Assembly: GCA_003244145.1 (NCBI GenBank)
Contig: QHBM01000084.1
Location: forward strand, 1-64,000
Source: Chthoniobacterales bacterium
GTDB lineage: Bacteria > Verrucomicrobiota > Verrucomicrobiia > Chthoniobacterales > UBA10450
Direction: 5' to 3'
DNA: 64,000 nucleotides
Shown here: positions 3,410 to 56,023 of the stretch, in pieces
Layout of the letters: each line of letters begins with the position of its first letter
How positions within the stretch are numbered: the first letter of the stretch is position 1
Program-made: the position numbers and the translations under genes
The notes under the pieces: generated by a model
What the model was told of the DNA's origin: nothing
The model's database searches: none
Seen by the model: the letters and a program-made list of their open reading frames with translations, nothing else

Positions 3410-3461
3410 CGTTGCTAAGCCTGAGGCTCACCCGTTCGCCTGTCAAAGTCCTCTATGGAGA

Positions 3462-3482
3462 GGTCGGAGGTCAGAAGTCAGA
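3462..3482. repeat. Heptad array GGTCGGA GGTCAGA AGTCAGA
   Basis: 7-bp period. Confidence 0.75.
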
Positions 3483-3548
3483 AAAAAGGCTTGTTCTTGC
3501 TGCACGAAAACGATGTGATCCGCGGACAAATAAATAGGAGAAAAGAAA

Positions 3549-4133: not shown

Positions 4134-4242
4134 ACTGAAGTTGCAGACTGTCACGTCCCGGGAAAATCGCAGCAGGGTGATGCTCACTGCGACAGAGCGC
4201 CGTGCCTACAACGTCGAGGCGTCTTGATCTGTAATCGCCTCG

Positions 4243-5286
4243 CTATCCTTCTGCCTCAGTGCGGCGGGCCCAACGCAGTTTCGCCGAAGTCGCACGCGGG
4301 TTGGCGCGGCGTTCTTCAGTGCTGGGCCTAACGACCTCAGTCGCGATCTCCGCGTAATGGCGCTCGCGCAGGCCGGCTTCGAACGCCTTCTTCACCCGCC
4401 GATCTTCGCCGGAGTGAAAGGTAAGAATCGCGACGCGTCCTCCGGGATTCAGACACGCAGGGAGATTGCGTAGGAAAGTGTCGAGAGCGGAGAACTCGTC
4501 GTTCACGGCGATGCGCAATGCCTGGAAAACGCGCCGGACCGAAAGCTCCTGCTCCTCTTCCTTTCGCGAGAACAACGCCGCGCGAATGGCGTGAGCCAGC
4601 GCGCGCGTGGAGGCGAATGTCTTTCCCGCGAGACTTGGCGCGAGCGCCGGATTGGATTCATCGGCATTCTCCAGGAACAGGCCAGAAAGCTTCTCCGCGG
4701 AAAGTTTTTGCAGTAGCACCGACGCGGGCGCGCCGCGTTCCGGATTCATGCGGAGGTCGAGCGGCCCCTCTAGTTTCAACGAAAAACCGCGCTTGGGATC
4801 GTCGAGCTGCATCGATGAAACGCCGAGATCGGCCAGGATCAGATCGACGGCGGCGATCCCCCTGCGCGCCAGCAGTTGTGGCAACCCGGCGAAGTTGGTC
4901 CGATGCGCGGTGAAAGTGTTTTCGTCGAAGCCGAGCGCACTGAGACGCGCCTCAGTCTTCGGCAGCTCGATCGGATCGGCATCGAGACCGAGCAAGCGAC
5001 CACCCGGTTGCAGCCGCGGAAGAATTTCCTGTGCGTGACCGCCGTAACCGAGCGTGCCATCGACTGCGATCTCTCCCGGCTTTGGATCGAGCGCGGCGAG
5101 CACCTCCGCCACCATGATCGGCCGATGCGAACCAACGGGCGTTTTCCCGGAAGCGAGCACCTTCGCAATCGTGTCCGAGTAGCGAGCGGGCTCGTGCTCC
5201 TTGTATTTTTCCTCGAAGCGGCGCGGATTCTTTCCACGATAACGCGCCCGGCGGGGTGGGCGATCGGCCGGAGGATCGTTGGGCAT
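4243..5286 (-). CDS. rsmH: 16S rRNA (cytosine(1402)-N(4))-methyltransferase RsmH
   Basis: DGTLGYGGHAQEIL, DLILADLGVSSMQLDDPKRGFS, LDLRMNP, FHSGEDRRVK; start inferred at MPNDPP. Confidence 0.93.
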   Translation of the reverse strand: MPNDPPADRPPRRARYRGKNPRRFEEKYKEHEPARYSDTIAKVLASGKTPVGSHRPIMVAEVLAALDPKPGEIAVDGTLGYGGHAQEILPRLQPGGRLLGLDADPIELPKTEARLSALGFDENTFTAHRTNFAGLPQLLARRGIAAVDLILADLGVSSMQLDDPKRGFSLKLEGPLDLRMNPERGAPASVLLQKLSAEKLSGLFLENADESNPALAPSLAGKTFASTRALAHAIRAALFSRKEEEQELSVRRVFQALRIAVNDEFSALDTFLRNLPACLNPGGRVAILTFHSGEDRRVKKAFEAGLRERHYAEIATEVVRPSTEERRANPRATSAKLRWARRTEAEG

Positions 5287-5389
5287 ACTCTTGGCGGAGG
5301 TTAGTGCCGACCGCGACACCGCGCGAAGCGAAATCAAACGAGAGAACCATGCGAGTGTCGATGGGTCGGGGCGCGATTCAGCTCCGACT

Positions 5390-5938
5390 ATGCGATTGTT
5401 TATGTGCATTTCCTGTTTGAGTATGACGTTGGGTTTGTGCGGCTGCGCCAATGAGCCGACCTCGGATTCATCGCGCGCGCGAAAAGAACCGTTGCTCGAT
5501 CCTGTGGCGTTTTTCGCAGGACGAACGGCCTCCTCCGGCGTGATGGAAAACAGAGTAAATGGTTCGAAGCGCCGAGTGACGACAGAGACACGCGGTCATC
5601 GCCAAGGCGAGACTTTGGTCCTGGAGCAGAACCTTTCGTTCAGCGATGGCACCAGGCAACATCGCTCGTGGCGCATCCGAAAACTGGATGCGCACCACTA
5701 CGAAGCCACCGCGAACGACATTGTCGGAACCGCGCGCGGGGAAGCGTCCGGCAATGCGTTTCACTGGAGCTTCACCCTCGCGCTTTCGCCCGGAAACCCG
5801 CTGGCGAACGTGCGGATGACGCAATCGATGTATCTCCAACCCGACGGGAGCAGCCTGATCAATCACACCACTATCCGGAAACTAGGAATCGTCGTTGCGC
5901 AAGTAAACGAACAGTTCCGCCGCCGCGGTTCCAGGTGA
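5390..5938 (+). CDS. DUF3833-like lipoprotein
   Basis: Signal peptide with LGLCGC; DPVAFFAGRTASSGVMENR pattern. Confidence 0.65.
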   Translation: MRLFMCISCLSMTLGLCGCANEPTSDSSRARKEPLLDPVAFFAGRTASSGVMENRVNGSKRRVTTETRGHRQGETLVLEQNLSFSDGTRQHRSWRIRKLDAHHYEATANDIVGTARGEASGNAFHWSFTLALSPGNPLANVRMTQSMYLQPDGSSLINHTTIRKLGIVVAQVNEQFRRRGSR

Positions 5939-6074
5939 CAGCAACGCCAAGGAGGTGGTCTTGCACGAAGTTGCGCGTTGTCGCCGCCGGTTCTGACTCA
6001 TGGGAGCGATTCTGGTTTCCGCTCTCGCAGAAATTCAACGTGACCTTTTAGGCCGGAGATTGCAGGGTGCGATC

Positions 6075-7811
6075 ATGCGCGGTCATTACCTGTCCATGTT
6101 CGGCGCAGTGGTGGTATTCGCTGCGACGCCAGGCGCGCGGGGAGGAGTAGCGGACTCGTATCTGAGCACCTACCTCGGGATGTTCCCAACCCGTGCGACG
6201 CAGGCGGGGGATCACGCGTTCGATAGCAAGCTGGAAGATTTTTCGGCGGAACAGCTAAAGCGATGGGTTGAGTTCAACGAGGCAGAACGCGGCCGACTAA
6301 CAAGACTGCTGAGCGCGCCCGATTTGCCATTCGACGATCGGCTTGATGCCGAAGCGTTGCTGGCCCACGTCGAGCGCGAACTGCACCAACAAACCGTGCT
6401 GCGGCGGCCGCAGCGCGATCCGCTCTACTGGTCCGAAGTCATAGCCAACGCGGCGGTCTTTCTCCTGGTGCGCGACGATCTGCCCCTGGCGGAGCGACAG
6501 CAACGCGTGCGAGCACGCGCGCGTTTGTTGCCCGCTTTCTCGCGCCAGGGTAGCGAAACCCTCACGCGAGCGAAAAGCGACGAGGTCGCGCCGGAATTGT
6601 GCAAGATCGCGGTGGGACAGCTGCGCGCCACCGCCACGTTTTACCGGGACGGGTTCGCGCGCGCGGTGGGCGATCAGGCGGAAGCGCGCGACGAAGGCGA
6701 ACAGGCAGCGAAGGCAATATCGGAGCTTGCCGACAACATCGATAAGCTCTCGCAGCACGCGACCGGTTCGCCCAGGCTCGGCCAGGAATACGCCAGAACG
6801 TTTCGTCTGGGCACCGGGATTACTGAACCTGTGGCCGATGTTTTGAAACGGGCGACCTCGGACCTCGCGGCCAAGAGGACGGAAGCCGCGGATTTCGGCC
6901 GCAAGGTTTGGCGGGAATTAATGAAGGATGAAAAGCCGCCGGCGGACGATACCGCTTTGCTGCGCCGACTCTTTGAGCGCGTGGCTGAGGACCGTGACAC
7001 CAACGAGGAGACTTATGCTTCCCGCTGGAAAGCAAACGTTGGTGAGATCGAGAAGTTTGTGCGGGAAAAGCGAATCATGACGCTGCCGGATCCGCTCACC
7101 TTGATGGTGGACCGGGCGCCGGCGTATTTTGTTGGTCAGAGTGTTGGCGGGGTCTATCCGGCCGGAGCCTATTCGCCGGAAGCAAAGACAATTCTCTTTC
7201 TGCCGGTCCCGCCGCACGACGCGACGGCCGGGCAGCGCGAAGCGTTCTTCCGCGATTTTAACCGGCCGTTTAGCCGGATGATTGTGCCGCATGAACTGAT
7301 TCCAGGTCATTACGTGCAGCTCAAGTATGCCGCGCGTCATCCGCACAAGGTGCGCGCGCTATTTCCGGATCCGGTTTACATCGAAGGCTGGGGGACGTTT
7401 TGCGAGCGGCTCTTGCTGGATCAAGGCTGGGGCGGTGCGTTGCCGCGCCTGGCGCATCTCAAGAAGCAACTCGAGAACATCGCCCGCACCATCGTGGACA
7501 TTCGGGTCCACACGGAGAACATGTCGCGCGAGGAGATGACGCGGTTCGTGAAAGAGGAGGCGCTGCAAGGCGAACAGCTGGCTAGTAACATGTGGACGCG
7601 AACCCTGACCAGCTCACCACAGATCACTACCTACTACCTCGGCTATGCGAAAGTGACGGAGGTGTACGACGCTGCTCGCGCGGCCCAACGGGACAAGTTC
7701 GAGCTGCGCCGCTTCATGGATGGAATGATGCGGCTGGGACCGGTCCGGCTCGAACATTATCTAGAGCAAGTACGCACAACCGATTCGCCTGCGGATGATA
7801 GTAAACGCTAG
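6075..7811 (+). CDS. DUF885 family secreted protein
   Basis: HELIPGHYVQLKYA, EGWGTFCERLLLD motifs of DUF885. Confidence 0.85.
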   Translation: MRGHYLSMFGAVVVFAATPGARGGVADSYLSTYLGMFPTRATQAGDHAFDSKLEDFSAEQLKRWVEFNEAERGRLTRLLSAPDLPFDDRLDAEALLAHVERELHQQTVLRRPQRDPLYWSEVIANAAVFLLVRDDLPLAERQQRVRARARLLPAFSRQGSETLTRAKSDEVAPELCKIAVGQLRATATFYRDGFARAVGDQAEARDEGEQAAKAISELADNIDKLSQHATGSPRLGQEYARTFRLGTGITEPVADVLKRATSDLAAKRTEAADFGRKVWRELMKDEKPPADDTALLRRLFERVAEDRDTNEETYASRWKANVGEIEKFVREKRIMTLPDPLTLMVDRAPAYFVGQSVGGVYPAGAYSPEAKTILFLPVPPHDATAGQREAFFRDFNRPFSRMIVPHELIPGHYVQLKYAARHPHKVRALFPDPVYIEGWGTFCERLLLDQGWGGALPRLAHLKKQLENIARTIVDIRVHTENMSREEMTRFVKEEALQGEQLASNMWTRTLTSSPQITTYYLGYAKVTEVYDAARAAQRDKFELRRFMDGMMRLGPVRLEHYLEQVRTTDSPADDSKR

Positions 7812-29119: not shown

Positions 29120-31387
29120 ATGAAACGCCCCATTTGGAAACGTGCAGCCGGTAAAAAGGGCAAGAGCGCCCACCGCAAGGCGGCACAATACGCGAAAAAG
29201 TATTATCCAGGTGGTAAAGCCCTGCAGAGAATTAAATACTTTGAAACCCAACGCGACTTGGCTTGCACGACATTAGTTCGCGGTTTTGTTACTTCAGAAG
29301 CCAGCGCCGCTCCGCGAATTTCCCGAAAGGCTCCGGCGCGACCGAGCGTAAAGCCGGCGGCTGAATACGCGAAGGCGAATCGAGCGAAAAGCCGGCTCAT
29401 CCCAACCAAGTTCGCCGCTAGCGTGGCGCTTCCGGTCTGGCGTCCCCTGGGACCAACCATTATCCCACACGGTCAAACCTATGGAACGGGCGGTAACAAC
29501 AAGCCGCCCGTCGCCGGCCGCTGCTCGGGGGTTTGTATTTCGCCTTCAAATCCAAACCACTTGGTCCTTTGTTCGGGAGGCGGCGGACTCTGGGAGACCT
29601 TGGATCAGGGAACGACCTGGCGCCCGCTCACGGATCAGCAGCCGACGTTATCAATGGGTGCGATCTGCGCCGCGCCCAGTTCGCCGAACATTGTCTATGC
29701 GGGGACGGGCGATGGAGATAACCAGAGCCAGCTAGGTGTAGGGCTGCTCCGGTCGTCCGATGGCGGCCAGACCTGGGAGCATCTCCCGGCCAACGAGCTT
29801 TCCGGCATTGGTGTTCATGATCTCGCGGTCGATCCTTCTAATCCGCTTCATGTCTGGGCAGGCACATCGGAGAAGCTCCTTGAAAGCACTGATGGTGGAG
29901 TGACCTGGCGCGCGGCCCAGCTCACCACTACCTGGGATATTTCCGTTAATCCAAATGATCCTCAGGAGATTTTTGCCGCTACTGTCCCCGGCTTGGTTCG
30001 TTCTGGCGATGGTGGCGCGACCTGGACACGCGTGGCTCTTCCCGGCTCGACTCCGGGCTCGCGCTTCTCGCGGATGGAAGTTTGTCACGCGCCTTCCAAT
30101 CCGGCCATCGTCTATGTCGGCGCCGTTCTAGATAAGAAGGTCATGCTCTGGCGGCGTGCTTCCAATGGCGGCGCCTTCTCCGCCGAGAAACCTCCCTCGA
30201 TGAAAGCAAACTCGGACATCGACCAGGCTTGGTATGACTGGTGTATGGCGATCTCTCCAGTTGATCCCAGCATTCTTTATTGGGGCGCGGTGGAGCTTTA
30301 CAAGGGAATGCGCGGAGCGAGCGGTTGGACCTGGCGCAACATCTCGTCTCGAGCTAGCGGCGATTCCATTCATCCCGATCAACATCATCTGGCCTTTGAT
30401 CCGTCCGATGCCAATGTGCTTTTCGCCTGTAACGATGGGGGAGTGTTTCGTTCGCCGGATGGCGGCGCGAGTTGGAAAGCGCTCAATAAGGGACTTAGCA
30501 TTACCGAGTTCGAATTCCTGATTCATCTCGAAAGCGACGACAACTGGCTCATAGGTGGAACGCAGGACAACGGGACCCTGGGTCAGCCTGACAACGGAAC
30601 CTGGAACCAGATTGCGCTCGGGGATGGCGGCGATTGTGGCGCGGACGATACTAACAAGCTTTGTTACCACTCCTTCTACGGCATCGGGATTGAGCGTGCT
30701 CCAGCTACCGGCCCGAACGCTTTTAAGTGGAAGGATGTTTCTCCGCCGGCGCCTGACGACTATGAAGCGCTCTTCTATCCTCCCATGGACGTAAGCGACA
30801 GGCTTATCGCCAAGGCCGGGGTTACAGTTTGGATTTCGGATGATAGCGGCGACAACTGGAACGAAGTTGATTACGGCGGGACGGGCGGCGAGATGGCTTC
30901 GGCCGTCAGCATTGTGGACGCGAAGACCCTCATCATCGGAACTGAAAATGGGCGATTGGCTCGCGTTGCACGAGCTACTTCCGGCTGGGCCAAAGCGACT
31001 GTCACTCAGTTAACGAGCCCGTTAGGCGGATTCCTCAGTGACATCGTCGTCCTGGGAACTACTAAACAGCTTATCTGGACAAGTAGCTCCGCCTTTGGAG
31101 GAGGCCATGTCTTCCGCTCGACTAACGGTGGCAAGACCTGGAGCAATCGCACGGGCAACCTGCCGGACATTCCAGTTAACGCGATTGTGATCGATCCGAA
31201 AAACACACAGCGCATTTTTGCTGCGACTGATCACGGAGTCTACCGGAGTCAGAACGCCGGGACCAAATGGACCGACTTTAGCAACGGACTTCCCAACGCC
31301 GTCATCGGCGACATGATTCTTCACGAACGCCGGCGAGTCCTTCGCATCGGCACCCGCAACCGCGGCGCGTGGGAAGTCGCCTTGTAG
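29120..31387 (+). CDS. VPS10/sortilin-like BNR-repeat beta-propeller protein
   Basis: Repeated SxDGGxTW / RSTNGGKTW motifs. Confidence 0.85.
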   Translation: MKRPIWKRAAGKKGKSAHRKAAQYAKKYYPGGKALQRIKYFETQRDLACTTLVRGFVTSEASAAPRISRKAPARPSVKPAAEYAKANRAKSRLIPTKFAASVALPVWRPLGPTIIPHGQTYGTGGNNKPPVAGRCSGVCISPSNPNHLVLCSGGGGLWETLDQGTTWRPLTDQQPTLSMGAICAAPSSPNIVYAGTGDGDNQSQLGVGLLRSSDGGQTWEHLPANELSGIGVHDLAVDPSNPLHVWAGTSEKLLESTDGGVTWRAAQLTTTWDISVNPNDPQEIFAATVPGLVRSGDGGATWTRVALPGSTPGSRFSRMEVCHAPSNPAIVYVGAVLDKKVMLWRRASNGGAFSAEKPPSMKANSDIDQAWYDWCMAISPVDPSILYWGAVELYKGMRGASGWTWRNISSRASGDSIHPDQHHLAFDPSDANVLFACNDGGVFRSPDGGASWKALNKGLSITEFEFLIHLESDDNWLIGGTQDNGTLGQPDNGTWNQIALGDGGDCGADDTNKLCYHSFYGIGIERAPATGPNAFKWKDVSPPAPDDYEALFYPPMDVSDRLIAKAGVTVWISDDSGDNWNEVDYGGTGGEMASAVSIVDAKTLIIGTENGRLARVARATSGWAKATVTQLTSPLGGFLSDIVVLGTTKQLIWTSSSAFGGGHVFRSTNGGKTWSNRTGNLPDIPVNAIVIDPKNTQRIFAATDHGVYRSQNAGTKWTDFSNGLPNAVIGDMILHERRRVLRIGTRNRGAWEVAL

Positions 31388-41435: not shown

Positions 41436-43529
41436 TTACTTCGCGTGCTGATCTGCCGTGTGGTAGGCCTTGGGAAACTTGATCAGCTTTATTTTTTTCT
41501 CGAGTTCTTTGATGGAGAGGGCATGCATCTCCCACTCGGGGGTCAAAGCGAACTCTTCTTCCACCGGCACCTTGGTCAGGTCCTGCTCGAGGACGAAGGC
41601 CCAAACCTGGAGCTTGCCGCCTTTGACCGCGCACACGACTTTCCAAAAATCGCGCGGAATCCTGACGCTCACATTTCCTGCGTTATCTTTTCCGGCGAAG
41701 AGCGGGTCGTCATCCGCCAGAACGGGTCCGGCGAAAAGGCAATAGTTCTCCGTCTTCTCCTTCGCTTTCGCCTGCCCGAGGACGAAGTTCTCCAGGTTCC
41801 CCCAGAGACCATGCAAGCGACTTTGATTGAAGTTAGCCCTTTGCGGTGAGCAGTTGGTGGTGTGAAACGTGTCGCCGTTCGCGCGTTGCACCTCCGCGAA
41901 GTCTACTCCCCAGCAGACGTCCTCGCGCCGCACGATATGTCCCTTGTCGAAAGCCGCGTTGTCCTTCGAGTAGAAGGTGTCGGGCAAAGTGACGGTGTCG
42001 TCCACGCGCGAATCGGCAACCCATCGTTCGATTTCGCCATTCTCCAAACCGGTCAGACCTTTACGGGAATAATCACGGTCCTTCTCCGGCATTCGGCTCT
42101 TGTCGCTGCCGTCCACATTTGAGGCGGTGAAGATCGCGAGCCGCCGGGTCTTATGAAGGACGACACTGAAATGGTCGTAGGGAATGATGGTGCCGCCATT
42201 CTTCATCTTGCCGATAATTTTTTTGTCGATCACGGTGGGCAGCGGTGTCGAGACCCCGAGGAATTTTGTCTGGAACCCTTTTCGCGAGCTGTAGTCCTTG
42301 TCCACGATCGGCTCCTTCATCGTCTCGAATTCCGAGGGGCCACCGACCACTGCGCCGGAAACGGGGCCGGGCCCTGCTCCAACGGTTGCGGCGGAGAGGG
42401 TGAGCGGCTGACCGAGAACGGTGAGCTGGAGGTCAACAACGAGAGAGACGCGCTGGGCGCCGCCTCCGCTGTTTGATGGGAGGGATGGAGATGAAGAGGG
42501 TGTGCTCATGATTTCTTTCGCGTTCGGATTTTGGAAGGCCAGCGCAAGGACATCGCCGCCATTCATGGCCTGTTGGAGCTCGGCGAGGTGGCCGTTCTTT
42601 TCTTTGGCTTCGGCCAGAATCGCCGCGCAGATCTTACTGATGCGCACGCCGGCATTTGCGATCCAATCCACCTCAGAATCGTCGATGCCCTCAAGGCTGG
42701 CGACCCTCCGTCCATCCTTCAGAACAAAGAGGTTGCCATCACGACGCGCTTTACCTTGATGGTGAAGAGCGGCCACCTGAAGCGAATCGTTAAAGACTGG
42801 AGCGCCCGAGGATCCTTGAGCCGTGTCGCTCCTATAGACGAGGAACTCGGGATCGCTGTCATCCACCAACTGATTCTCGCGGATGGCGAATTGACGTCGT
42901 TGTCCGCCAGGGTGCTGGATAATAGTCAACCATTCCGGCGCCTTCGCTTTCCCGGATTCGGGGATTAACCGAAGGTAACCAAAGCGCGACAATGGTTCCC
43001 CGCCATTAGTCGAAGCCGCTTCGACCGAGACCAGCGCGAAGTCGAGCGCGGCATGATTGAAAAAGAAAAGGTCCGGCCGCAACCGATAGATGAAAGAAGG
43101 TGTTGGGTCGCCGGCGATGTCGAGGCGAAAATTAAATTCCACAGTGGAGGAAGCCGCCTCTTCCGCGGTGGGGAAAACGTGTTCGTTCGTCAGGAATAAA
43201 CGCGGGGAGACCATGAACCCCGTGGCGCAGCCACGCTCATGTCCGAGCGAGCTGCGGATGCTGATTCGCGCCACTGGCTGCGCCGCGACCAGCGCGCGTT
43301 CGAGGTAGAACTGATCGACCAAATCATTTGTTCCGATGAGCCGCTCGAGCTCGGTCTCGGAAGGTCGCGCTCCGCCCTCACTCAGAAATGAGCGGCGCTT
43401 GCGTGTGTCACTGCTCGCCCGCGCGCGTTTTGCCGTCGGGAGAAAGGTCAGCGCCTGGTGCCGTGTGATTCCGGCCAGGACGCGCTGGGCGCCGTCCTTC
43501 ACGGCAGATTTTGTTTCCTCGATCTTCAT
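41436..43529 (-). CDS. Trypsin-like serine protease fused to DNA/RNA non-specific (NUC) endonuclease
   Basis: Triad-like LTNEHVF / ALDFALV / GSSGAPVFN; NUC motif DKGHIVRREDVCWG and NCSPQRANFNQSRLHGLWGNLENFV. Confidence 0.88.
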   Translation of the reverse strand: MKIEETKSAVKDGAQRVLAGITRHQALTFLPTAKRARASSDTRKRRSFLSEGGARPSETELERLIGTNDLVDQFYLERALVAAQPVARISIRSSLGHERGCATGFMVSPRLFLTNEHVFPTAEEAASSTVEFNFRLDIAGDPTPSFIYRLRPDLFFFNHAALDFALVSVEAASTNGGEPLSRFGYLRLIPESGKAKAPEWLTIIQHPGGQRRQFAIRENQLVDDSDPEFLVYRSDTAQGSSGAPVFNDSLQVAALHHQGKARRDGNLFVLKDGRRVASLEGIDDSEVDWIANAGVRISKICAAILAEAKEKNGHLAELQQAMNGGDVLALAFQNPNAKEIMSTPSSSPSLPSNSGGGAQRVSLVVDLQLTVLGQPLTLSAATVGAGPGPVSGAVVGGPSEFETMKEPIVDKDYSSRKGFQTKFLGVSTPLPTVIDKKIIGKMKNGGTIIPYDHFSVVLHKTRRLAIFTASNVDGSDKSRMPEKDRDYSRKGLTGLENGEIERWVADSRVDDTVTLPDTFYSKDNAAFDKGHIVRREDVCWGVDFAEVQRANGDTFHTTNCSPQRANFNQSRLHGLWGNLENFVLGQAKAKEKTENYCLFAGPVLADDDPLFAGKDNAGNVSVRIPRDFWKVVCAVKGGKLQVWAFVLEQDLTKVPVEEEFALTPEWEMHALSIKELEKKIKLIKFPKAYHTADQHAK

Positions 43530-45637
43530 GGGGTAGGCCCTGGCAGGCTTTGGAGTATTCCATCCATCGCTTCGCCATTTTGGACGACGTCGTCATTCCG
43601 GCGCACTTGGTCCTGCATCGTCTTCGCCGCGGCGGCGGACAACATCCAGCCTAACGGCAACGGCACCTTCAGGTCGTGAAGTCCGAAGTAGAAGATGTCG
43701 GGACTCTTTGGTTCGGCCTCGTCCGGCTCGAGCGGAGCTGCGGTGACACCCGGCTGGACTGCCTTAAAGCGACGCTGCTCGACCTTGATCGCTTTTTGCG
43801 CGTAGGTGCCGCGCGCAGTGCGTGTGTTCATGAGCGTGAAAAGCGGGGCGGTGACTTCGCCCATGAAATGTCCCGTGACCGTCTCCGATTTCGTGCGCTT
43901 GGGTCCAGGCGGTTCCGGTCCCGGTTTGGCCGGCGCAATCATGAGAGATTGCTTGCGCGGATCGTTGCTGATCATGATCACCTTCACATCCACGTTCGTG
44001 ATTTTCTTGAACGCGCACCAATCCTTGATCCGGGTCGCCAGCTCATAGGCGGTGGTGGCGGCGGAATTCTCAAAGTAACCGCCATCCACGATGCGCGAGC
44101 CATCCGGGAAATGTCCGGCCGGGCTAACGAAGGTGAAACGCGCGCTCATGTGCGCCGCGGTGCTGAGAGGAATGTGGCAGGCCGCTTCCGTCGCGCCCAG
44201 GCTGTAACCGGCGAGTTTTTCCGCCGCATCTTCCGCATCGAGAAAATTATTCGTGACGCGCAGATTGCTGGTGATGATGCGATTTCCTTTTTCGACCGAG
44301 GTGCCGTTGAGGAGAAGCGCCGGCATCCACTCGCGCGGGCCGGGTTTCCAAAGATCGACAAAGGAACCGGCAAAGCGGTCGTTCCCCATGGTCTCGCGCC
44401 ACGCTTTTTCCCATCCCATTTCGAGCGAACGGCCGCGATCGAAACTGAGGATGGGGCAAGGCAGGAAGCGTTGGACCAAATCGGGATAGAGCATGGAGGC
44501 GAGCGTCGGCGAAAGAAAATCCTGACCCAGGATGAGGTGCGCCTTCTCGTTGAACTTAAAAGAACTCGGCTCCGACAGTAACGCGTCGAAGACAGCCGCC
44601 CCGAGGCTTCCGCCAGAAACGCCGCTGATCGCGAAGAGATGCGGCGCGAAATTCGGATTCCGGTCCTGGATTTCACCGAGAACAATCGCCGTCCAATACG
44701 CGGCTCGAATTCCGCCTCCTTCCGTGGCCACGATGTAAAGAGGATGCGTCGTGCCCGCGCCGTGATTTTTTTCTACCGCGTCGTACCAAGTTTGGAACGC
44801 TTTCAAGGCGCTGACGCGTTTCACCTCCTGGCGAGGCAGTTCGCGAATGGCGTGATTGTCGTTCCAAAGACTGAAGAGGAGCGCGAGCAGAAAGAAACAG
44901 GTGAGGAATGGAAATTGAAAACGAAGACCGAGAAAAACAAAGAAGCTGCCGAGAGCAATCCAGGAAGAAGCAGAGAGCAATAGGATGGTGCCCAGGCCCA
45001 TGAATTGGGCGACCGGAACGGGCGCGATGGTGAAAGCGACGAAGAGGGCCAGCGATACCAGAGCGATAAGGCCGAGACCTGCAATGGTGCCCCAGGAGAA
45101 ATCGCCCACGCCAGTTACGTTGCGTGATGGCGTGGAACCCAGCCATTTTCGGCGGAGGATGAGCAGCAAATAAAAGACAACCGCGAGAACGGCGGAGAAA
45201 ACAGCGAAACCGATCAGCCATTGCCAGGTTTGGGTGCCTTTGTCATAGGAACGCGAAGCGACGAAAAATCCAAAGGCCACGATCAAGATCGGTGCGACTC
45301 CCAGTATCCGCGGAACATGGGTCAGGGCCCATTGTGAGGACGGACCTTTGTAGGAGCCGGGAAGATCGAATGAGAGAAGGACGCGCGCGCCGTACCAACT
45401 GCAGACCGCCCAAAGAATCAGGGCCGCGAAGAATCCGATGACACGAGGCCAGTAGGCCAGCTCACCGATCGCCATTCCTTCGCCGATGGTGCGCAGGATT
45501 TCTGTCCCTTGCGCAACGCAAAGAAAAACGGGACACGCAATGAGCGCTACCAGAACGCTGAAGCGACACGGTTTGAGCTGGTGGTAACGATCGCGAATCC
45601 CCAACCAGAGGCGCTGCAACCAGATAAAGGGTGGCAC
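43526..45637 (-). CDS. Patatin-like phospholipase with multi-TM N-terminus
   Basis: EGGGIRAAYWTA oxyanion loop, ISGVSGGSLGAAV (GxSxG), VDGGYFENSA (DGG). Confidence 0.87.
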   Translation of the reverse strand: MPPFIWLQRLWLGIRDRYHQLKPCRFSVLVALIACPVFLCVAQGTEILRTIGEGMAIGELAYWPRVIGFFAALILWAVCSWYGARVLLSFDLPGSYKGPSSQWALTHVPRILGVAPILIVAFGFFVASRSYDKGTQTWQWLIGFAVFSAVLAVVFYLLLILRRKWLGSTPSRNVTGVGDFSWGTIAGLGLIALVSLALFVAFTIAPVPVAQFMGLGTILLLSASSWIALGSFFVFLGLRFQFPFLTCFFLLALLFSLWNDNHAIRELPRQEVKRVSALKAFQTWYDAVEKNHGAGTTHPLYIVATEGGGIRAAYWTAIVLGEIQDRNPNFAPHLFAISGVSGGSLGAAVFDALLSEPSSFKFNEKAHLILGQDFLSPTLASMLYPDLVQRFLPCPILSFDRGRSLEMGWEKAWRETMGNDRFAGSFVDLWKPGPREWMPALLLNGTSVEKGNRIITSNLRVTNNFLDAEDAAEKLAGYSLGATEAACHIPLSTAAHMSARFTFVSPAGHFPDGSRIVDGGYFENSAATTAYELATRIKDWCAFKKITNVDVKVIMISNDPRKQSLMIAPAKPGPEPPGPKRTKSETVTGHFMGEVTAPLFTLMNTRTARGTYAQKAIKVEQRRFKAVQPGVTAAPLEPDEAEPKSPDIFYFGLHDLKVPLPLGWMLSAAAAKTMQDQVRRNDDVVQNGEAMDGILQSLPGPTP

Positions 45638-45640
45638 GGT

Positions 45641-45976
45641 TCAGACTTTCCCGGGGACTGCGGTCAACGCCGTGGTGATGATCACACTAAAAACCGAATC
45701 GCGGAACTGTTCGATCTGGACCGTGCCCGCACTCGCCGCCTGGAGCGCCTTCATTTCGGCCGCGGCTTTTTGCGATTCAACCAGGAAAGTAAACTCATCC
45801 TGGTCGATCTCATTATTCGCGAGCTGCTGCACCCATTGCTCCAATTTCGTTTTTGATTCCTGCAGGAATGCCTCCGCGTCTTGTTTCCCCTGCCCGGCGA
45901 ATTGTTTTAGGTCTTTCTCTGCGAGTGGCCCGAGCTGGTTTTTGATGTCGGTAAGGATTTGATTGAAGTCAGCCAT
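45641..45976 (-). CDS. Small helical hypothetical protein
   Basis: ORF 3 bp upstream of patatin start; helix-rich composition. Confidence 0.6.
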   Translation of the reverse strand: MADFNQILTDIKNQLGPLAEKDLKQFAGQGKQDAEAFLQESKTKLEQWVQQLANNEIDQDEFTFLVESQKAAAEMKALQAASAGTVQIEQFRDSVFSVIITTALTAVPGKV

Positions 45977-45991
45977 ATGGGTTTCCTCGGT

Positions 45992-46432
45992 CTAAGAATG
46001 CGGCTTGTCGTTTTCAGTTTTTATTAGGATGTCGAAGAGGCCGCTCACCTGACCCTTGGCGTCGTCGACGAAGGCGGGCGAAAGAGTGCCCTTCTTTTTC
46101 CACAAATTGAAAAGGTTGCTCAGTTGCGTCTTGATCTTTTTCCACTGCTCGACGGTAGGGATGTTTTGCGTTCGTTGCTGTTCGCTGCTGATGGCCGCGT
46201 CGATTTTCTGCATGAGTGAGTCGACATCAGCCGACACGCCGGTGTACGGCGCACTATTCTTTGCGCGACCAATCAGCGCGAGCGAGCTGGCCTTGATCGC
46301 TTTGTCGGTGTTGGAGGCGGCCTGATCGAATTTGGTCGAGGACAACAAACTCTTGGTCGTGTTACAGCCAAATTGCCCAGCGAGGAGCGAGGCGCAGGCG
46401 AGAACGACGCAGACGTTTTTAAGGGATCTCAT
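45992..46432 (-). CDS. Small lipoprotein
   Basis: MRSLKNVCVVLACASLLAGQFGCN signal with Cys. Confidence 0.6.
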   Translation of the reverse strand: MRSLKNVCVVLACASLLAGQFGCNTTKSLLSSTKFDQAASNTDKAIKASSLALIGRAKNSAPYTGVSADVDSLMQKIDAAISSEQQRTQNIPTVEQWKKIKTQLSNLFNLWKKKGTLSPAFVDDAKGQVSGLFDILIKTENDKPHS

Positions 46433-46475
46433 GGTGTGTCTTTCGGTTTTGGTTTGGTTGGCGAATGGAACTTGG

Positions 46476-47573
46476 TCACGCGCGGGGTGTCGCTAAGAGG
46501 CGGTAAACGCCGCCATCCCGACCTTTTTCCAAAGTATGGTTTTCGCGCTCGGACGTGTTTTTTCCGCGGATGAGCGCGCGAATATCTTCAAACAAGACGG
46601 GACGGTCATAGGAATGGCCGAATAGGTCGGAGCGCACGGCTGACGCGTCGATGACGTCGATTTTTTCGGCAAGGCCTCCATTAGACAATTCCCCCAAGCG
46701 CGCATGGTCGTGCAGGAATGAGGAGAGACCCAGGGCGTGATCGCGGCTGGACGCGTAGACGGTTACATGACCGCAAAGCGCGCGGGCGCGGACGATATTC
46801 TGGCGAAAGTAAAGGCGATTGACGTCGGGCTCGAGGAGGATCAGGTGAGCGAACATCGGTTGCCGTGGATTGATCTGTCCCGCGCGAATCAGAGAAATAT
46901 CGCGCAAAGCATAGGTGACGGCCCGAGCGCCAAGACTATGGCCGATGAGGACCGCGGGAGTCGTCACGTCATCGCGGTGCAGGCCAATATCATGGTGCAG
47001 GTTCGTGAGGAATCTTCGAATGTTTTCCTGGTTCAGCAGAGCCGTCTCTTCATCCTTGAGATAGGCGAGGGCCTTGCTCGCCGAGGCCCAGCTATAAATT
47101 GCGGGCCGCGCCGCCGCATCGGGCTGAAGCTCATGCGCAAAAACTGCGGCCCGGTGTACGGCCGTGGCAAACGTGTTGTTGAATCCGTGAATGTAAACAA
47201 TCAGCGGATGTGCGCTGCTGATCTGGTTTCGCACCTCGGTGTCGAATCTTCCCGGCAACAACCCGGGATTCCCGGCCAGCGGCGGATCATAAGAAGCAAT
47301 TCGCGTCTTGCCCGGTCCGATTTCGACGGTGGCCAGGCCATACCTGACTATTTGAGGGTTGCTAGCCTCGGGACCGAACGCCGCGTCGGGACTTCGAGGA
47401 TTCTCTATGACTGCCCGCGTGGTTGCGAAATAAACCGGGACCGTAGCGGCCTGGCGTGGGTTATCGGGCCCAGAGCATCCGACCGACCAAACCAGTAAGA
47501 GAAGCATCCACGGGAACGGAGACAGGTTTCGATTACGGGCAAAACGCCGCGTGGACTGGAAGGAGCGATTCAT
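46476..47573 (-). CDS. DUF900-like alpha/beta hydrolase, probably exported
   Basis: VPVYFATTRA, VYIHGFNNTFATAVHRAA, LIGHSLGARAV. Confidence 0.83.
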   Translation of the reverse strand: MNRSFQSTRRFARNRNLSPFPWMLLLLVWSVGCSGPDNPRQAATVPVYFATTRAVIENPRSPDAAFGPEASNPQIVRYGLATVEIGPGKTRIASYDPPLAGNPGLLPGRFDTEVRNQISSAHPLIVYIHGFNNTFATAVHRAAVFAHELQPDAAARPAIYSWASASKALAYLKDEETALLNQENIRRFLTNLHHDIGLHRDDVTTPAVLIGHSLGARAVTYALRDISLIRAGQINPRQPMFAHLILLEPDVNRLYFRQNIVRARALCGHVTVYASSRDHALGLSSFLHDHARLGELSNGGLAEKIDVIDASAVRSDLFGHSYDRPVLFEDIRALIRGKNTSERENHTLEKGRDGGVYRLLATPRA

Positions 47574-47752
47574 CTTAGGGAGTCTTTTGCCTCATGGCCA
47601 AACGCCCGGACTTCGTCGCAAGGCTGTGCGAAACGGCGTGGGGTTGTAAAGATCATTCTTCCCGCCTTCGCCAGGGTACGCGCGACATGTCCTTTCACTC
47701 TCCGGCGACACGTGGAGTTGATCGTTTGGAATTGAGAGCTGAGAGTGCCGCG

Positions 47753-49402
47753 ATGGCGGAACACGGTTTGGAGGCAGTCGCATTTCCGAGGCTCAGCGAA
47801 GAGCAGATTGAGCAGCTCGGGCGTTTTGCGGGCACGCGACCAAGAAAATTTCGCGCAGGGGAGGCGCTTTTTCGGGTGGGCGATCGCGACCTGAGGTTCT
47901 TCGTGATCAAGTCCGGCGAGGTCGAGATCATCGACGAAACGGGCGACAAGCCGAAGGTGGTCACGGTGCATCAACCGGGAAGTTTCACCGGCGACGTCAA
48001 TCATGTCACCGGCAACCCTGCCGTGGTCAGCGGGATCGCCCGGGTCGATTGCGAAGCTTACGAAATATCGAGCGAGGCTTTGCGTGAGATTTTGAACCAG
48101 GACCCGCGCCTGAGCGACATCATCCTGCAAGCACTCATCGCGCGGCGCCAACTCCTCCGGGAATCGAGCGACTTCACCGGCTTGCGCGTCATCGGTTCCC
48201 GCTATTCGAAGGACACATTTCGCATCCGCGATTTTCTGGCGAAGAATCGAGTGCTCTTTACCTGGCTCGATCTCGAAGGCGATCCGGCGGTGGGTCAATT
48301 GCTCGAACAGTTTGGAGTGACCGAAGCCGACACGCCGGTGGTCGCGTGCGCCCGCATGCTCCTTTTGCGCAATCCCTCTAATCGCGAGCTGGCTGAAGAG
48401 CTCGGCATCCGCCGGCCGGTGGAACATACGGTTTACGATCTCGCGATCGTTGGTTCGGGACCGGCGGGATTGGCCGCCGCGGTGTATGCCGCCTCCGAAG
48501 GGTTGAGCACGATTGTCCTGGAAACCACGGCCCCGGGCGGACAGGCCGGCAGCAGCATGCGGATCGAGAATTATCTCGGATTTCCCACCGGCATTACCGG
48601 CAGCGAACTGGCCGACCGCGCCGTCCTCCAGGCGGACAAGTTCGGCGCGCGCATTTCCATTCCCACCCCCGTAATCAAGCTCAGCTTCGACCAAGCCTAC
48701 TCCGTTCTCGGATTGGAAGGAGGCGAGACGGTTGTCGCCAAGTGCCTGCTTATTGCTACCGGGGCCGAGTATCGGCGGCTTGAAGTGGAAGGCTGCACCC
48801 GCTTCGAAGGCAACGGCGTTTATTACGCCGCGACGCCGAACGAAGCCCAGATGTGCCGGAACTCAGATGTGGTGCTTGTTGGCGGCGGAAACTCCGCCGG
48901 GCAAGCTGCAGTCTATCTTTCCCAGAATGCGAGAAAAGTATTTTTAATTATCCGGGGCGATGACCTTTGCAAAAGTATGTCGGCGTATCTGGCCCACCGA
49001 ATTCTCAATACACCCAACATCGAGTTACTTCGCGATACCACGATCACCCGCATGTCCGGCAATGACTCTCTCGACTCAATCGAAATCCTCAATAGCAAGA
49101 CCGGGGAAAAGCGGACCTTGCCGGTCAGTGCCGTCTTCAGCTTCATCGGTGCGACGCCGCGGACTGATTGGCTCCCGCCGGAGATCGAGAAGGACGCGAA
49201 GAGTTTCGTCCGCACCGGAATCACCCTGGCGGAATCGCCTCATTGGTCGCTGAAACGGCAGCCGTTCCTATTGGAGACCAGTCGGCCCGGAGTCTTCGCT
49301 GCCGGCGACGTGAGGTCTGGGTCCGTCAAACGCGTCGCTTCCGCCGTGGGCGAAGGCTCGATGTCCGTCCAGTTCGTGCATGAATATCTGAAGGAGAGGT
49401 AA
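47753..49402 (+). CDS. Cyclic-nucleotide-binding domain + glutaredoxin-like + TrxR-like FAD oxidoreductase fusion
   Basis: FRVGDRDLRFFVIKSGEVEIIDE; VGSGPAGLAAAVYAASEG; ETTAPGGQAG; VVLVGGGNSAGQAAVYLS; FAAGDVRSG; start uncertain (ORF opens at 47594). Confidence 0.88.
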   Translation: MAEHGLEAVAFPRLSEEQIEQLGRFAGTRPRKFRAGEALFRVGDRDLRFFVIKSGEVEIIDETGDKPKVVTVHQPGSFTGDVNHVTGNPAVVSGIARVDCEAYEISSEALREILNQDPRLSDIILQALIARRQLLRESSDFTGLRVIGSRYSKDTFRIRDFLAKNRVLFTWLDLEGDPAVGQLLEQFGVTEADTPVVACARMLLLRNPSNRELAEELGIRRPVEHTVYDLAIVGSGPAGLAAAVYAASEGLSTIVLETTAPGGQAGSSMRIENYLGFPTGITGSELADRAVLQADKFGARISIPTPVIKLSFDQAYSVLGLEGGETVVAKCLLIATGAEYRRLEVEGCTRFEGNGVYYAATPNEAQMCRNSDVVLVGGGNSAGQAAVYLSQNARKVFLIIRGDDLCKSMSAYLAHRILNTPNIELLRDTTITRMSGNDSLDSIEILNSKTGEKRTLPVSAVFSFIGATPRTDWLPPEIEKDAKSFVRTGITLAESPHWSLKRQPFLLETSRPGVFAAGDVRSGSVKRVASAVGEGSMSVQFVHEYLKER

Positions 49403-51337: not shown

Positions 51338-54300
51338 CTACGGGCCGCCGCGGTCGTAAATTTCCACGAGACCGACGCCTGTGGTGTTGTTCACTCCCGA
51401 GAGCAGCACCGTGTAAAGGCCCGGTGGGAGCGTCTTCGCTATGGCAGACTCTTTGGAGTTGGTCGGTGCCAGACCGGCAGCGCTGATTTCCGCTGCTTGA
51501 GCCGCATTATCCTGCCAATCGTTGTCCGACATGATCAGCGCGCCATCAGCATCCCGCAGCTCGAGGGAAGGATCAGCCAGCACGTTAGGCACACCAGAGG
51601 TTGTAAGGCTGGGCCCGAGGCCACGGACTACGACTCTGTCTTGACCGCCGTTGTTGCCGAGAATAAAGCCTGCAATCACGATATTGCCTCCGGTTCCAAC
51701 AAAGGCACGCGTGCTGAGGTTCGCGAGCTTCGAAGCAGCGGCTGTATCCAGATCATAGACTTCGAATAAGGCGACACCGGTATTGTTGCCTTTGCCACTA
51801 ACGAGAACTGTATATGCCCCGGGCGGCAGCGTTGCATCGATAGCTGATTCGAGATCATTAGTCGGCGGAAGGCCATCGGCTTTGATCTGAGCCTCCTGGG
51901 TGTCTCTCCAGTTATCGTTTGTTATTGTCCCAAACGAACCGGGACCTTTTATTTGCAGCACCGGGTCGGCCAGCGGATTGCTAACGCCGAATTGGGTCAA
52001 GGAAGGGCCAATAGCTCGGACGATCACGTGCTTGGGCTTGGTCCCTGTAATGATGAAGCCACCAATGCCAATGTTATCGCCTGTCTGCACAAACATGCGC
52101 GTAGATAGGTTGACAGCTTGCGACGCAGGAGTTGGCGTCGGGGTTGGGGTTGGGGTTGGGGTCGGTGTCGGCGTCGGTGTTGGGGTCGGCGTCGGTGTTG
52201 GCTCGGGATTTTCCGAGATTCTAACGACCGCTTCGGATGGAGAACCAAGGTTGGCGCCGATGGCATTGCTTAACGCGACACTAAAGGTCTGCGTGCCTTC
52301 ATTTGGAGCCTTGTCATCGAGCAGAGTGACCGTGATCGTCTTTACCGTTTCTCCGCTGAGGAACGTGAGTGTTCCGGCGTTGGCAACGTAATCGGTGCCC
52401 GCGGTGGCAGTGCCGTTTGTCGTAGTGTAATCGACCGTGGCGGGCGGAGTCGTAGGACCCGTGCGAGTAACCGTGAGGACAACGTTCCCGTCTTCCTCAT
52501 TGGCGCTGTACTCAAGTGACGCGAACTCAATACTCGGACTCGGGGCCGGGGTCGGCGTGGGTGTAGGGGTTGGAGTCGGTGTTGGGGTCGGTGTCGGCGC
52601 GGCCGGATCGAAGACCGTGAATTGAGTTCCGCCCTGTGTTACATCGAAAGGCTCATCGGCGTTGCTGTAGAAGTCATAGGCCTCTCCCCGGAGTCCGGTC
52701 GCGACAGTGTTGTGACCGATAACGATGTTGCCGCCAGCCAGATTAAGTTTGGAGACCTTTACCGTTACGCTGATGGTGTTATCTGCGAGGTTAACCTCGC
52801 CAGCGTCTGCCTCTCCGAATTCGTAATAATTGATGATGCCACTTTCCGCTCGAACGGCGCGACCATAGAAAAACACAAGGTTGTTAGGATATGGAACAGG
52901 TTCCGGTGCGTCGCACCCGTAACATACGCGAGAATCCCTTGCCTCAAAATAGTACTGCTCGCCTCGGTCAGACAGGCCGTAAGTGTAGCCTCCATTGGCG
53001 CTCACGACGGAGTGTGGAGCTCCGACCGAGAAGCTCATCCGCCAGACACCGGGATCTAAGTTGACGAAATCTCCCCCGCCAAGATCCGAGAGCCTCATCT
53101 TAGCACGAATCGCGAGTTGATCACCGGCGCCGATAGATTCGTATTTGATCGAAACAATATCGAAGCGATCGTCGTAATCGAGCCGCTCGTTTGTATCGGG
53201 ATCCAGCACGTCCCCAACGAAGTCGGTCACCTGCTCGCCGTTCGGCCCAGGCTGCGCCGGGGGTATTATGTCAAACGGGTCCCCGGGCACGCCCGGGGTG
53301 GGGGCGGGAGGCGACACACTAGGATCCGTTGCCACGGTATCTCCATTGCCTTTGATGCTCGGACCCGCGATTTGCCGAGCCACATAGACCATGCCGCTGT
53401 AGTCATTGTGATCGTCAGTGTAGGCGACCACAGCGGCGCCCTTCGGATCAAACGAGAGCTGGATATAGTCGAGAATATTGCTTCCCTCTTTTTCGTTCTC
53501 CAGAGAGATATGGCCGGAATGGACGAAGTGCTCCGGTTCGTTGACTTCCGAGATTTCGAACGCAGGAGTATTAGCGGTCGCCGTCAGGGTCTGAGCGAAA
53601 TAAATCTTCCAATCGGCGGGGGCCGCATTTTCCGCGCTCTTGGTCCCATACCACACGATTCCCACAGCACCGGGGGTGCTACCGGTCTCAAGCCACGGCA
53701 TGACATTAATCTTGGTCGTGACGCCATCGTTCACCCGCACCGGATTGGACCATGTCTGCCCCTGGTCCTTCGAATCGATCAGGAAGACGTCTGTCCCATT
53801 CGAGTAAACACCATACACGGTGCCATTGGGCGTCCCGTCATCAGCTACTTTGGTCACGAATAGTTTGTGAGCTACACCATTCGGATCGCTGGCGGCTAGA
53901 TAGAAATTATACGAGGTTGGCGCCGGAGGAGCAGGCGTCGGCGCCGTCGGCGCGTATGCAGGGCGCAAGTTGAGCATAGGAGGCGTTGGGACGCCGACCG
54001 CCACGTTTCCTGTGCCGCCGGCAAAATAAACTACACCATCACTCTGGTGAACATCGATCGGCCCTTGCTCGCCAATACTCAGTCCCGTGGGCAGGCGCGA
54101 CGGAAACGTAAGGCCGGCGTCATCCGAGCGAGCAACGCTGGCCTCGCCGCTAGATTCGGCGATCCGGTAAAGCAGATAGGTTACGTCGCCGCCTAAAAAC
54201 TCTTCCGACTGGAACTGCTTGGCCGGGTTGGAAAACTCGGTCCTGCTTAAGTCGAACGTGATTCCAGAATCTCTACTGTTCCCGGTCAGGATGTAGCGGC

Positions 54301-55750
54301 TGCCATCGTCATCGTACCGAACGCTCAAGGCCAGGACTGGCGGTGGAGTAGGGGTGGGTGTCGGGGCTGCAATGGTAAATGCCGTTGGAGCAGGCGTAGG
54401 ACTTGACAGAGCGAACCCAACCGCCAACGCGAGATGTCCATCGACAGAATCGTCTTCATTGCTATCGGTGTTAAATAACTTCGGCCGGTCGGCGCGATAA
54501 AGCGGCACCTTCAGGTTAGGGTCATAACCCGGATTAGGCGAACCATCGACGTTCTCGCGAAGATCGAAATACCAGAGGTCGACGTCGGGTTGGGGCATAT
54601 CGCCACGCATCGCGCCGATGTAAGTGTTGCCCTGAAAGTCCGTGCGAACGTTCGGGTTCCCATCGCGCTGCGAGGTCGGCGCCTTGAGATTAACATTCGG
54701 GCCGAATTTGATCGTGGCATTTTCCTCAGCGGTGTAGGCGGCACTCCGAGTCTGCGGATTGGGAATCGTTGTTACGGTTACGGTGCCGTCATACTCGCTG
54801 GGGCCCGCCGGAGGGCGCGCCGCGGCCGGGGAAGGCGGCTGGTTATAGAAAACGTCAACGTAGTAATAGGAGTTACCATCGAGCTCTTCCGGGAAGAACA
54901 CGACCTCTTCAGGCGTTGAGCCTTTGTGGGCCGCATAGGCTACCACAGGTCCCGAGTCGCTGCGCGACCGGACGTAAACATCAAAATCACTTACTCCATC
55001 CTTGGGCGCGATTTTCACCTTCACTTCCAGACCGTGGTAATCTTCCTTACTTCCATCCACATAGAACTGGTAGGTGTCGTGGAATGGCCCCTTGGGGGTA
55101 GTGGTAAAATTTGGTCCGAACCACAAATAACCTCCGCTAGTCCCATACGGGTTTGCGCTGCAATTACCATTGTTGCCGCTTTGGAAAGTGACTCCGAAAG
55201 CGGTCGAGACGGTGTCAGCGTTATAAACGAAGTTATCGCCTCCGTTGTAGCATGCGGTAATGCGATATGAGCCAGCTTGAAGTGTCACGGATGCAGGTAG
55301 TGCGACATAGCGAAAGCCATCGATAAGGGTGCCCGTTGTTCCCGAGGGCACATTCAGGGGGCCGGCGACGATGTTGCCGTTACTATCTAAAATGGTTACA
55401 TCATGCGCTTCGCCAAGACCATCCCCATCTTGATCCCAAATCCCCAGGTCGCTCACGACTTCCGCTCCGCTAAGGGTGAAATCCCAACCCCACCCACCAG
55501 ACTGATTGTACAGGGTCCCGCCGGTAAAACTCAACGCGGGAGTCGGTGTCGAGCTAGGGGCGGGAGTGGGCACAGCCCCACTCCACGACACCGAAGAACC
55601 CGGCGAGGGATAAACCGTGGGGCCTTGGCCGAGCGCTAGACTGGACGCGCCGATCAGCAGCGCAACGGCGATAAAAAATGATCGCCCCTCGGGTAAAAGA
55701 CGGGAAATGCTCGCGATTTTCGGCGCTCTTTCGTTACCATTCGTTTTCAT
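51338..55750 (-). CDS. Very large secreted protein with Calx-beta domain, PT-rich linkers and two C-terminal paralogous repeats
   Basis: Signal peptide; Calx-beta VDYTTTNGTATAGTDY; two NLSTR.FV.TG.NI.I.GFI.G repeats. Confidence 0.85.
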   Translation of the reverse strand: MKTNGNERAPKIASISRLLPEGRSFFIAVALLIGASSLALGQGPTVYPSPGSSVSWSGAVPTPAPSSTPTPALSFTGGTLYNQSGGWGWDFTLSGAEVVSDLGIWDQDGDGLGEAHDVTILDSNGNIVAGPLNVPSGTTGTLIDGFRYVALPASVTLQAGSYRITACYNGGDNFVYNADTVSTAFGVTFQSGNNGNCSANPYGTSGGYLWFGPNFTTTPKGPFHDTYQFYVDGSKEDYHGLEVKVKIAPKDGVSDFDVYVRSRSDSGPVVAYAAHKGSTPEEVVFFPEELDGNSYYYVDVFYNQPPSPAAARPPAGPSEYDGTVTVTTIPNPQTRSAAYTAEENATIKFGPNVNLKAPTSQRDGNPNVRTDFQGNTYIGAMRGDMPQPDVDLWYFDLRENVDGSPNPGYDPNLKVPLYRADRPKLFNTDSNEDDSVDGHLALAVGFALSSPTPAPTAFTIAAPTPTPTPPPVLALSVRYDDDGSRYILTGNSRDSGITFDLSRTEFSNPAKQFQSEEFLGGDVTYLLYRIAESSGEASVARSDDAGLTFPSRLPTGLSIGEQGPIDVHQSDGVVYFAGGTGNVAVGVPTPPMLNLRPAYAPTAPTPAPPAPTSYNFYLAASDPNGVAHKLFVTKVADDGTPNGTVYGVYSNGTDVFLIDSKDQGQTWSNPVRVNDGVTTKINVMPWLETGSTPGAVGIVWYGTKSAENAAPADWKIYFAQTLTATANTPAFEISEVNEPEHFVHSGHISLENEKEGSNILDYIQLSFDPKGAAVVAYTDDHNDYSGMVYVARQIAGPSIKGNGDTVATDPSVSPPAPTPGVPGDPFDIIPPAQPGPNGEQVTDFVGDVLDPDTNERLDYDDRFDIVSIKYESIGAGDQLAIRAKMRLSDLGGGDFVNLDPGVWRMSFSVGAPHSVVSANGGYTYGLSDRGEQYYFEARDSRVCYGCDAPEPVPYPNNLVFFYGRAVRAESGIINYYEFGEADAGEVNLADNTISVTVKVSKLNLAGGNIVIGHNTVATGLRGEAYDFYSNADEPFDVTQGGTQFTVFDPAAPTPTPTPTPTPTPTPTPAPSPSIEFASLEYSANEEDGNVVLTVTRTGPTTPPATVDYTTTNGTATAGTDYVANAGTLTFLSGETVKTITVTLLDDKAPNEGTQTFSVALSNAIGANLGSPSEAVVRISENPEPTPTPTPTPTPTPTPTPTPTPTPTPASQAVNLSTRMFVQTGDNIGIGGFIITGTKPKHVIVRAIGPSLTQFGVSNPLADPVLQIKGPGSFGTITNDNWRDTQEAQIKADGLPPTNDLESAIDATLPPGAYTVLVSGKGNNTGVALFEVYDLDTAAASKLANLSTRAFVGTGGNIVIAGFILGNNGGQDRVVVRGLGPSLTTSGVPNVLADPSLELRDADGALIMSDNDWQDNAAQAAEISAAGLAPTNSKESAIAKTLPPGLYTVLLSGVNNTTGVGLVEIYDRGGP
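52130..52205. repeat. GTYGG-type coding microsatellite (Pro-Thr linker)
   Basis: GTCGGGGTTGGGGTTGGGGTTGGGGTCGGTGTCGG... Confidence 0.8.
52536..52604. repeat. GTYGG-type coding microsatellite (Pro-Thr linker)
   Basis: GGGGTCGGCGTGGGTGTAGGGGTTGGAGTCGGTGTTGGGG... Confidence 0.8.
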
Positions 55751-56023
55751 AAAGTCTCGATTGTCATCCGGGCTAGATTTTTTTGTCAAGGCATTTATTA
55801 ATGAGGTGGACTCAGCGGTGAATATTCCCGTCCGCGGTTGACCCAAACAATAATTGAAGACCCCCGGCGCCGACGTGCTCTTGGCGCAATCCAGAGCCCG
55901 TCATTTCGAGTTTGGCACGCGGAATAGAGCGTGACTTCCCCGCGCCGAACTCTTACGTTTACAGGTATGATCACCGCCAAAGACAATCGAAATCTCTGAT
56001 ACACAAAACGCCGGCCTTAATTC

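Follow-up and report, generated by a model that had tools for sequence, protein, structure and literature searches.

Proteins that join a trypsin-like peptidase to a NucA-type endonuclease, either fused or encoded in one operon, were described as System 3 by Kaur et al. 2020 (eLife, PMC7159879), who suggested that such proteins form the core of conflict systems and are switched on by proteolysis; EAD1-fused or STAND/bDLD2 partners are optional in that system and are found in a subset only. In Caulobacter, the CARD-NLR-like system LypABC drives self-lysis, and its component LypC consists of an N-terminal trypsin-like peptidase, a linker and a C-terminal endonuclease, with a downstream lytic effector that is unknown (PMC13236601). 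A gene of this type closes a five-gene operon in the 64,000-nucleotide stretch analysed here (contig QHBM01000084.1, positions 1 to 64,000; hereafter the window), which derives from a soil-type Verrucomicrobia, Chthoniobacterales-like genome. The operon (41436-47573, minus strand) is a chimera put together from separate modules and does not represent a fixed system of five genes; two of its genes, designated P2 and P3, form a conserved, previously undescribed cassette encoding a lipoprotein and a helical protein. This portable cassette is the most valuable result of the analysis.

An earlier note made from the sequence of the window had reported five closely packed minus-strand genes, and these were confirmed at the coordinates given there, with catalytic motifs intact. 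Gaps of 43, 15 and 3 bp separate the first four genes, and gene 4 overlaps gene 5 by 4 bp (ATGA). The genes are as follows:

46476..47573, minus strand: gene 1, DUF900-type alpha/beta hydrolase, 365 amino acids, predicted lipoprotein (WSVGC), Ser213-Asp250-His320
45992..46432, minus strand: gene 2 (P2), small lipoprotein of 146 amino acids predicted to fold as a four-helix bundle, first half of the cassette
45641..45976, minus strand: gene 3 (P3), small, helical, 111 amino acids, with a C-terminal helix that is hydrophobic, second half of the cassette
43526..45637, minus strand: gene 4, multi-transmembrane patatin phospholipase (TM-patatin), 703 amino acids, GTG start, Ser341/Asp518
41436..43529, minus strand: gene 5, fusion of a trypsin-like protease and a NucA/EndoG-type endonuclease (trypsin-NUC), 697 amino acids

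The combination had been called unfamiliar, and the exact set was found nowhere else: no second copy was present in 196 genomes of the order or in the other collections searched, and among the neighbourhoods examined for relatives of the five genes none repeated the full set. Relatives of the single genes occurred in 14 (gene 1), 8 to 13 (gene 2, by query), 16 (gene 3), 23 (gene 4) and 4 (gene 5) of the 196 order-level genomes. Since the full set has no second occurrence in these searches and each of the three enzymes can stand apart from the other genes, the operon is real but is a singleton and not a conserved five-gene unit. The proposal that all five genes make up one system thus failed the neighbourhood check, the TM-patatin being found as a stand-alone gene and the trypsin-NUC gene being usually solitary.

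P2 and P3 were adjacent, with P2 first, in all 11 canonical loci (the window, L103, L104, L105, L106, L107, L164, L168, L169, L170 (= L108) and L177). The gap between them was -4 to +47 bp in ten loci and ~2 bp in L177, and the loci span Verrucomicrobia, Planctomycetota and Elusimicrobia. Neither protein matched a Pfam family at threshold; weak PADLOC or Pfam matches to Csx23, LeoBC, Tsi6 and HVO_2833_C were rejected as chance-level, those of P2 in Pfam not recurring across homologues. The lipobox Cys of P2, preceded by a hydrophobic lead, was invariant in 10 of 10 aligned homologues and fits a predicted lipoprotein. The envelope anchoring suggested in the earlier note is well supported for at least gene 2, and P2 would be anchored outside the inner membrane. 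P3 has no strong transmembrane segment; as it has no signal, it is probably inside the inner membrane. Structure prediction, proposed earlier as a check on both small proteins, succeeded for one of them. The AlphaFold2 model of P2 was a confident four-helix bundle (predicted local distance difference test (pLDDT) 81, helical core mostly >90; predicted template modelling score 0.69), which matched only generic helical bundles in a Foldseek search of the PDB, none at E<0.001; the model of P3 was all-helical and of low confidence (pLDDT 63), too weak to interpret. Distance matrices of P2 and P3 were correlated (Mantel r=0.61, p=0.003), a correlation to which shared species history contributes, and remained so when the Elusimicrobia pair was removed (r=0.73, p=0.0005). 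The cassette is rare, since a P3 profile had no hit in a phylum-wide sample of 389 further genomes; in the Elusimicrobia set 2 of 116 genomes carried it, and in the Planctomycetota set 1 of 115. P2 had no match in plasmids (tblastn) or in the phage collection, and no description of the cassette was found in the open-access literature.

The genes that accompany the cassette differ from locus to locus. A lipase lies directly upstream in three loci: the DUF900 hydrolase in the window and Lipase_3 proteins in L105 (6.1e-27) and L107 (5.4e-27). The slot downstream of P3 is filled by the TM-patatin in the window, by a member of a family of unnamed membrane proteins with a conserved GAPFWF motif in L103, L104 and L105, and by a decayed copy of that family in L106. 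The GAPFWF family (members at L039:11307-12626, L103:8724-10730, L104:572-2128, L105:6919-8154 and L142:4740-6278) had no Pfam match at threshold, was present in 25 of the 196 order genomes and recurs beside P2-P3, the TM-patatin or cell-wall hydrolase-like genes (the last in L142 and L149). In L168 (Elusimicrobia RIFOXYB2_FULL_48_7, MGVM01000007.1; 2331-5656) the order is patatin effector (2.6e-100), cyclase (5.6e-94), E2 (3.7e-49), P2 and P3. The first three genes make up a short type II operon of CBASS (cyclic oligonucleotide-based anti-phage signalling system), and the cassette begins 12 bp after the E2 gene, at the 3' end. To our knowledge, P2-P3 have not been known as CBASS components. 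In L177, from a second Elusimicrobia genome (G648; 2316-7620), P2 and P3 are followed by a ThsB_TIR gene (5.9e-18) and two further small genes; on sequence reading this cluster adjoins a DNA methyltransferase gene and a restriction-like/helix-turn-helix pair, and the region is likely a defence island. In L170 an nSTAND1 gene and a metallophosphoesterase gene precede P2 and P3. With such neighbours (lipases, CBASS genes, a ThsB-like TIR gene, a STAND gene with a phosphoesterase gene), P2 and P3 are not unrelated passengers. No enrichment p-value is given for these partners, because the PADLOC control, run on 65 distant open reading frames of the same contigs, was not clean (57 families; among the 25 listed, mostly generic methyltransferase and restriction endonuclease models).

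The three enzymes were compared with their own relatives. Gene 1 matched PF05990 (DUF900) at 1.6e-26, and its Ser213, Asp250, His320 and lipobox were kept in the best homologue (L073, 43-44% identical). Gene 4 scored 6.3e-5 against the Pfam Patatin model, under the gathering score, and nevertheless carries the patatin hallmarks (GXSXG Ser, DG(G/A) Asp and a glycine-rich oxyanion loop); Ser341, Asp518 and the GGGxR loop (G307/G308/R311) were invariant in 14 homologues, and about 7-8 hydrophobic segments (residues 24 to 258) precede the patatin domain. Gene 5 matched Trypsin_2 (1.1e-16) and Endonuclease_NS (1.8e-29), contains motifs of the catalytic triad and of the nuclease (TNEHV, GSSG and DKGH), and has no apparent signal peptide. 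Its weak PADLOC match to Retron RT-Protease type XI was rejected, as it spans the protease part only (profile 348-499/510) and no reverse transcriptase domain is present. A search of genome contigs with P0005 alone gave no match, its query patterns being degenerate and poor.

On plasmids, relatives of the trypsin-NUC protein were common (115 records; homologues with both domains in rhizobia, cyanobacteria and Paenibacillus), and TM-patatin relatives were rarer (13 records). On the Mesorhizobium sp. L-2-11 plasmid MesoLjLa2 four genes lie within ~10 kb, namely those for a TM-patatin relative, pYEATS, another patatin and a trypsin-NUC protein; the last three are ~5 kb or less from the TM-patatin gene, and this stretch adjoins a helicase/phospholipase-D gene cluster. 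Elsewhere the TM-patatin shares an operon with a GAPFWF-family protein and a GH75-like enzyme (L039), adjoins Amidase_2 genes (L038 and L041) or, in Rhizobium, adjoins a caspase gene. Side observations were made at several loci. The Mesorhizobium plasmid NZ_AP023258.1 holds a dense conflict-like island (L123:2825-28066) with UvrD, DUF6361, phospholipase D, helicase, TM-patatin, pYEATS, second patatin, trypsin-NUC and HEPN/Toprim-associated genes. Rhizobium ruizarguesonis pRlX4 has a run of peptidoglycan-binding peptidase, transmembrane protein, DUF1353, caspase and TM-patatin (L125:660-9539), which could represent a variant of this theme in rhizobia. On Azospirillum lipoferum plasmid AZO_p2 a very large SIR2-family gene is directly followed by a TM-patatin relative (L129:2379-9704), and in a same-genus relative of the source (G058:C28, L033:6217-11988) TM-patatin paralogues stand in tandem, one intact and the other broken by a frameshift or stop.

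The GC content of the operon equals that of the window, and the neighbouring proteins scanned in the window were of metabolic, housekeeping or secreted types. No secretion gene was recognised among these proteins, and the suggestion of a secretion-linked system is not supported. A gene that is transcribed away from gene 1, its listed start only ~20 bp from that of gene 1, encodes a fusion of cyclic nucleotide monophosphate-binding and thioredoxin-reductase-like parts (47594-49402). Further off are a Sortilin/BNR-repeat protein of 755 amino acids (29120-31387) and a Calx-beta protein of 1502 amino acids (51338-55846).

Of the claims made earlier, that of a conflict-type effector module stood as the best reading, the trypsin-NUC fusion being of a kind already described as a predicted core of conflict systems and P2-P3 lying beside lipases, CBASS, TIR and STAND genes, while the fixed five-gene system fell away. 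The operon is accordingly read, at a confidence a little short of even, as a chimeric, self-directed conflict module (of abortive-infection or programmed-lysis type) built of interchangeable parts. Also in its favour are the constant adjacency and correlated divergence of P2 and P3, the recurrence of lipases upstream and of the GAPFWF family downstream of the pair, and the caspase, SIR2 and trypsin-NUC neighbours of TM-patatin relatives. We infer its topology, order of activation, self-targeting, anti-phage role and P2-P3 function as follows. A P2-P3 envelope cassette would have come to be flanked by lipid-degrading effectors, gene 1 before it and gene 4 after it, and joined by gene 5, which would be cytoplasmic, as it lacks a visible signal peptide. 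A stress or infection cue would switch on the trypsin domain, as in LypC-type proteins (the protease serine of LypC is needed for self-lysis), and its proteolysis would free or activate the effectors. The patatin would cleave inner-membrane phospholipids from within and the gene 1 lipoprotein hydrolase would work from the periplasmic side, so that lipids would be attacked from both faces, while the NUC domain would degrade nucleic acid. At the envelope, P2-P3 would most likely play an accessory part, holding the lipolytic effectors in check, positioning them or setting them off. This is the leading guess because of its repeated association with lipases and its presence in a CBASS operon with a patatin, and the TIR and STAND loci show that it is not exclusive to lipases. 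In its broader form, somewhat less probable than the module reading itself, P2-P3 may be a portable two-gene accessory, with the lipoprotein outside the inner membrane and the helical protein inside, that plugs into unrelated conflict systems (lipase, patatin, CBASS, TIR, STAND) in at least three phyla and acts for all of them at the envelope, as a restraint on, sensor for or amplifier of membrane-damaging effectors. If this is true, bacterial immune and self-lysis systems with nothing else in common share a defined, testable accessory module, which may explain how cells restrain membrane-degrading effectors.

Several observations weigh against the conflict-module reading. Besides the lack of a second copy of the full set, the window operon was not called by PADLOC, contains no sensor (NLR/STAND, CD-NTase or TIR) by Pfam and has no defence genes among its scanned neighbours. 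The closest TM-patatins (62-65% identity), in two same-genus relatives, stand alone outside any such operon, and the plasmid trypsin-NUC relatives are mostly without an obvious linked partner. The nuclease residues of LypC are dispensable for lysis (PMC13236601). The cassette in L103, L104, L106, L164 and L169 has no recognised lipase neighbour, and a divergent P2'/P3' subfamily (L110, L111, L114, L120) lies among ordinary chromosomal or housekeeping genes.

The strongest rival draws on the same facts and supposes stacked defence genes: P2-P3 would be an autonomous envelope or defence pair that lands in hydrolase and defence clusters, and genes 1, 4 and 5 would be independent effectors co-transcribed by proximity, with no five-protein mechanism. 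Each enzyme is indeed separable from the others, the partners of P2-P3 are non-homologous, lone P2'/P3' pairs occur among housekeeping genes, and the Elusimicrobia TIR locus is itself adjoined by a methyltransferase and a restriction-like pair. The very tight spacing in the window, with its stop/start overlap, speaks against mere stacking, as does the recurrence of lipases in the same upstream slot (three loci) and of a membrane protein in the downstream slot; this explanation is held to be possible but doubtful. An effector-immunity locus, in which the lipases or the trypsin-NUC protein would be toxins against neighbouring cells and P2 and P3 an immunity pair, is improbable. Patatin, lipase and Endonuclease_NS domains do occur in interbacterial toxins, lipoproteins are the immunity proteins for some type VI phospholipase effectors, and P2 is a predicted lipoprotein adjoining lipases. 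Immunity proteins are normally effector-specific, however, whereas a single P2-P3 family accompanies at least four unrelated enzyme types, CBASS and TIR included; moreover gene 4 is multi-transmembrane, gene 5 has no export signal and the window proteins scanned include no recognised secretion gene. Slightly more improbable still is an ordinary operon for envelope-lipid turnover or nutrient scavenging. DUF900 and patatin hydrolases are common and the adjoining window genes are metabolic or housekeeping, but such an operon accounts neither for a trypsin-NUC fusion in the cytoplasm nor for the sporadic distribution (genes 4, 5 and 2 in 23, 4 and 8 of 196 order genomes), nor for the CBASS, TIR and STAND partners of P2-P3.

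Compared with described systems, the operon shares parts with several. It resembles Thoeris in that a ThsB_TIR gene follows one P2-P3 locus (L177), and differs in that no ThsA was seen in L177 and no TIR in the window. With type VI phospholipase effectors (Tle) and their lipoprotein immunity proteins (Tli) it has in common a lipase adjoining a small lipoprotein; unlike them, it has a multi-transmembrane patatin, a cassette not tied to one enzyme and no delivery or adaptor genes (VgrG, PAAR, DUF2169) recognised among the window proteins scanned. CBASS with a CapV phospholipase offers the same patatin effector class, and the Elusimicrobia CBASS operon carries P2-P3 at its 3' end, but the window patatin is multi-transmembrane, with no recognisable closeness to CapV, and the window operon has neither a CD-NTase/SMODS cyclase (Pfam, PADLOC) nor an E2; lacking a cyclase, it is therefore not CBASS. 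System 4 (EACC1) of Kaur et al. was rejected, there being no caspase gene in the window operon and no strong transmembrane segment in P3.

System 3 and LypABC stand closest. Gene 5 fuses both domains that define the System 3 core, and it shares with that system a sporadic distribution and many alphaproteobacterial relatives; the window operon differs in lacking EAD1, STAND/bDLD2 (no Pfam match) and extra trypsin genes, in containing two lipid hydrolases and P2-P3, and in its Verrucomicrobia host. Gene 5 also has the domain order of LypC, as compared by Pfam domains and not by sequence. The window operon does not, however, belong to the CARD-NLR systems, for none of its five genes has an ATPase domain and counterparts of LypA (CARD-peptidase-ATPase) and of the NLR-like LypB are absent. 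Unlike LypABC, it does contain a candidate membrane-lysing enzyme, the patatin; with a LypC/System-3-type trypsin-nuclease and a membrane phospholipase in one operon, the idea that the protease activates the lipase becomes directly testable.

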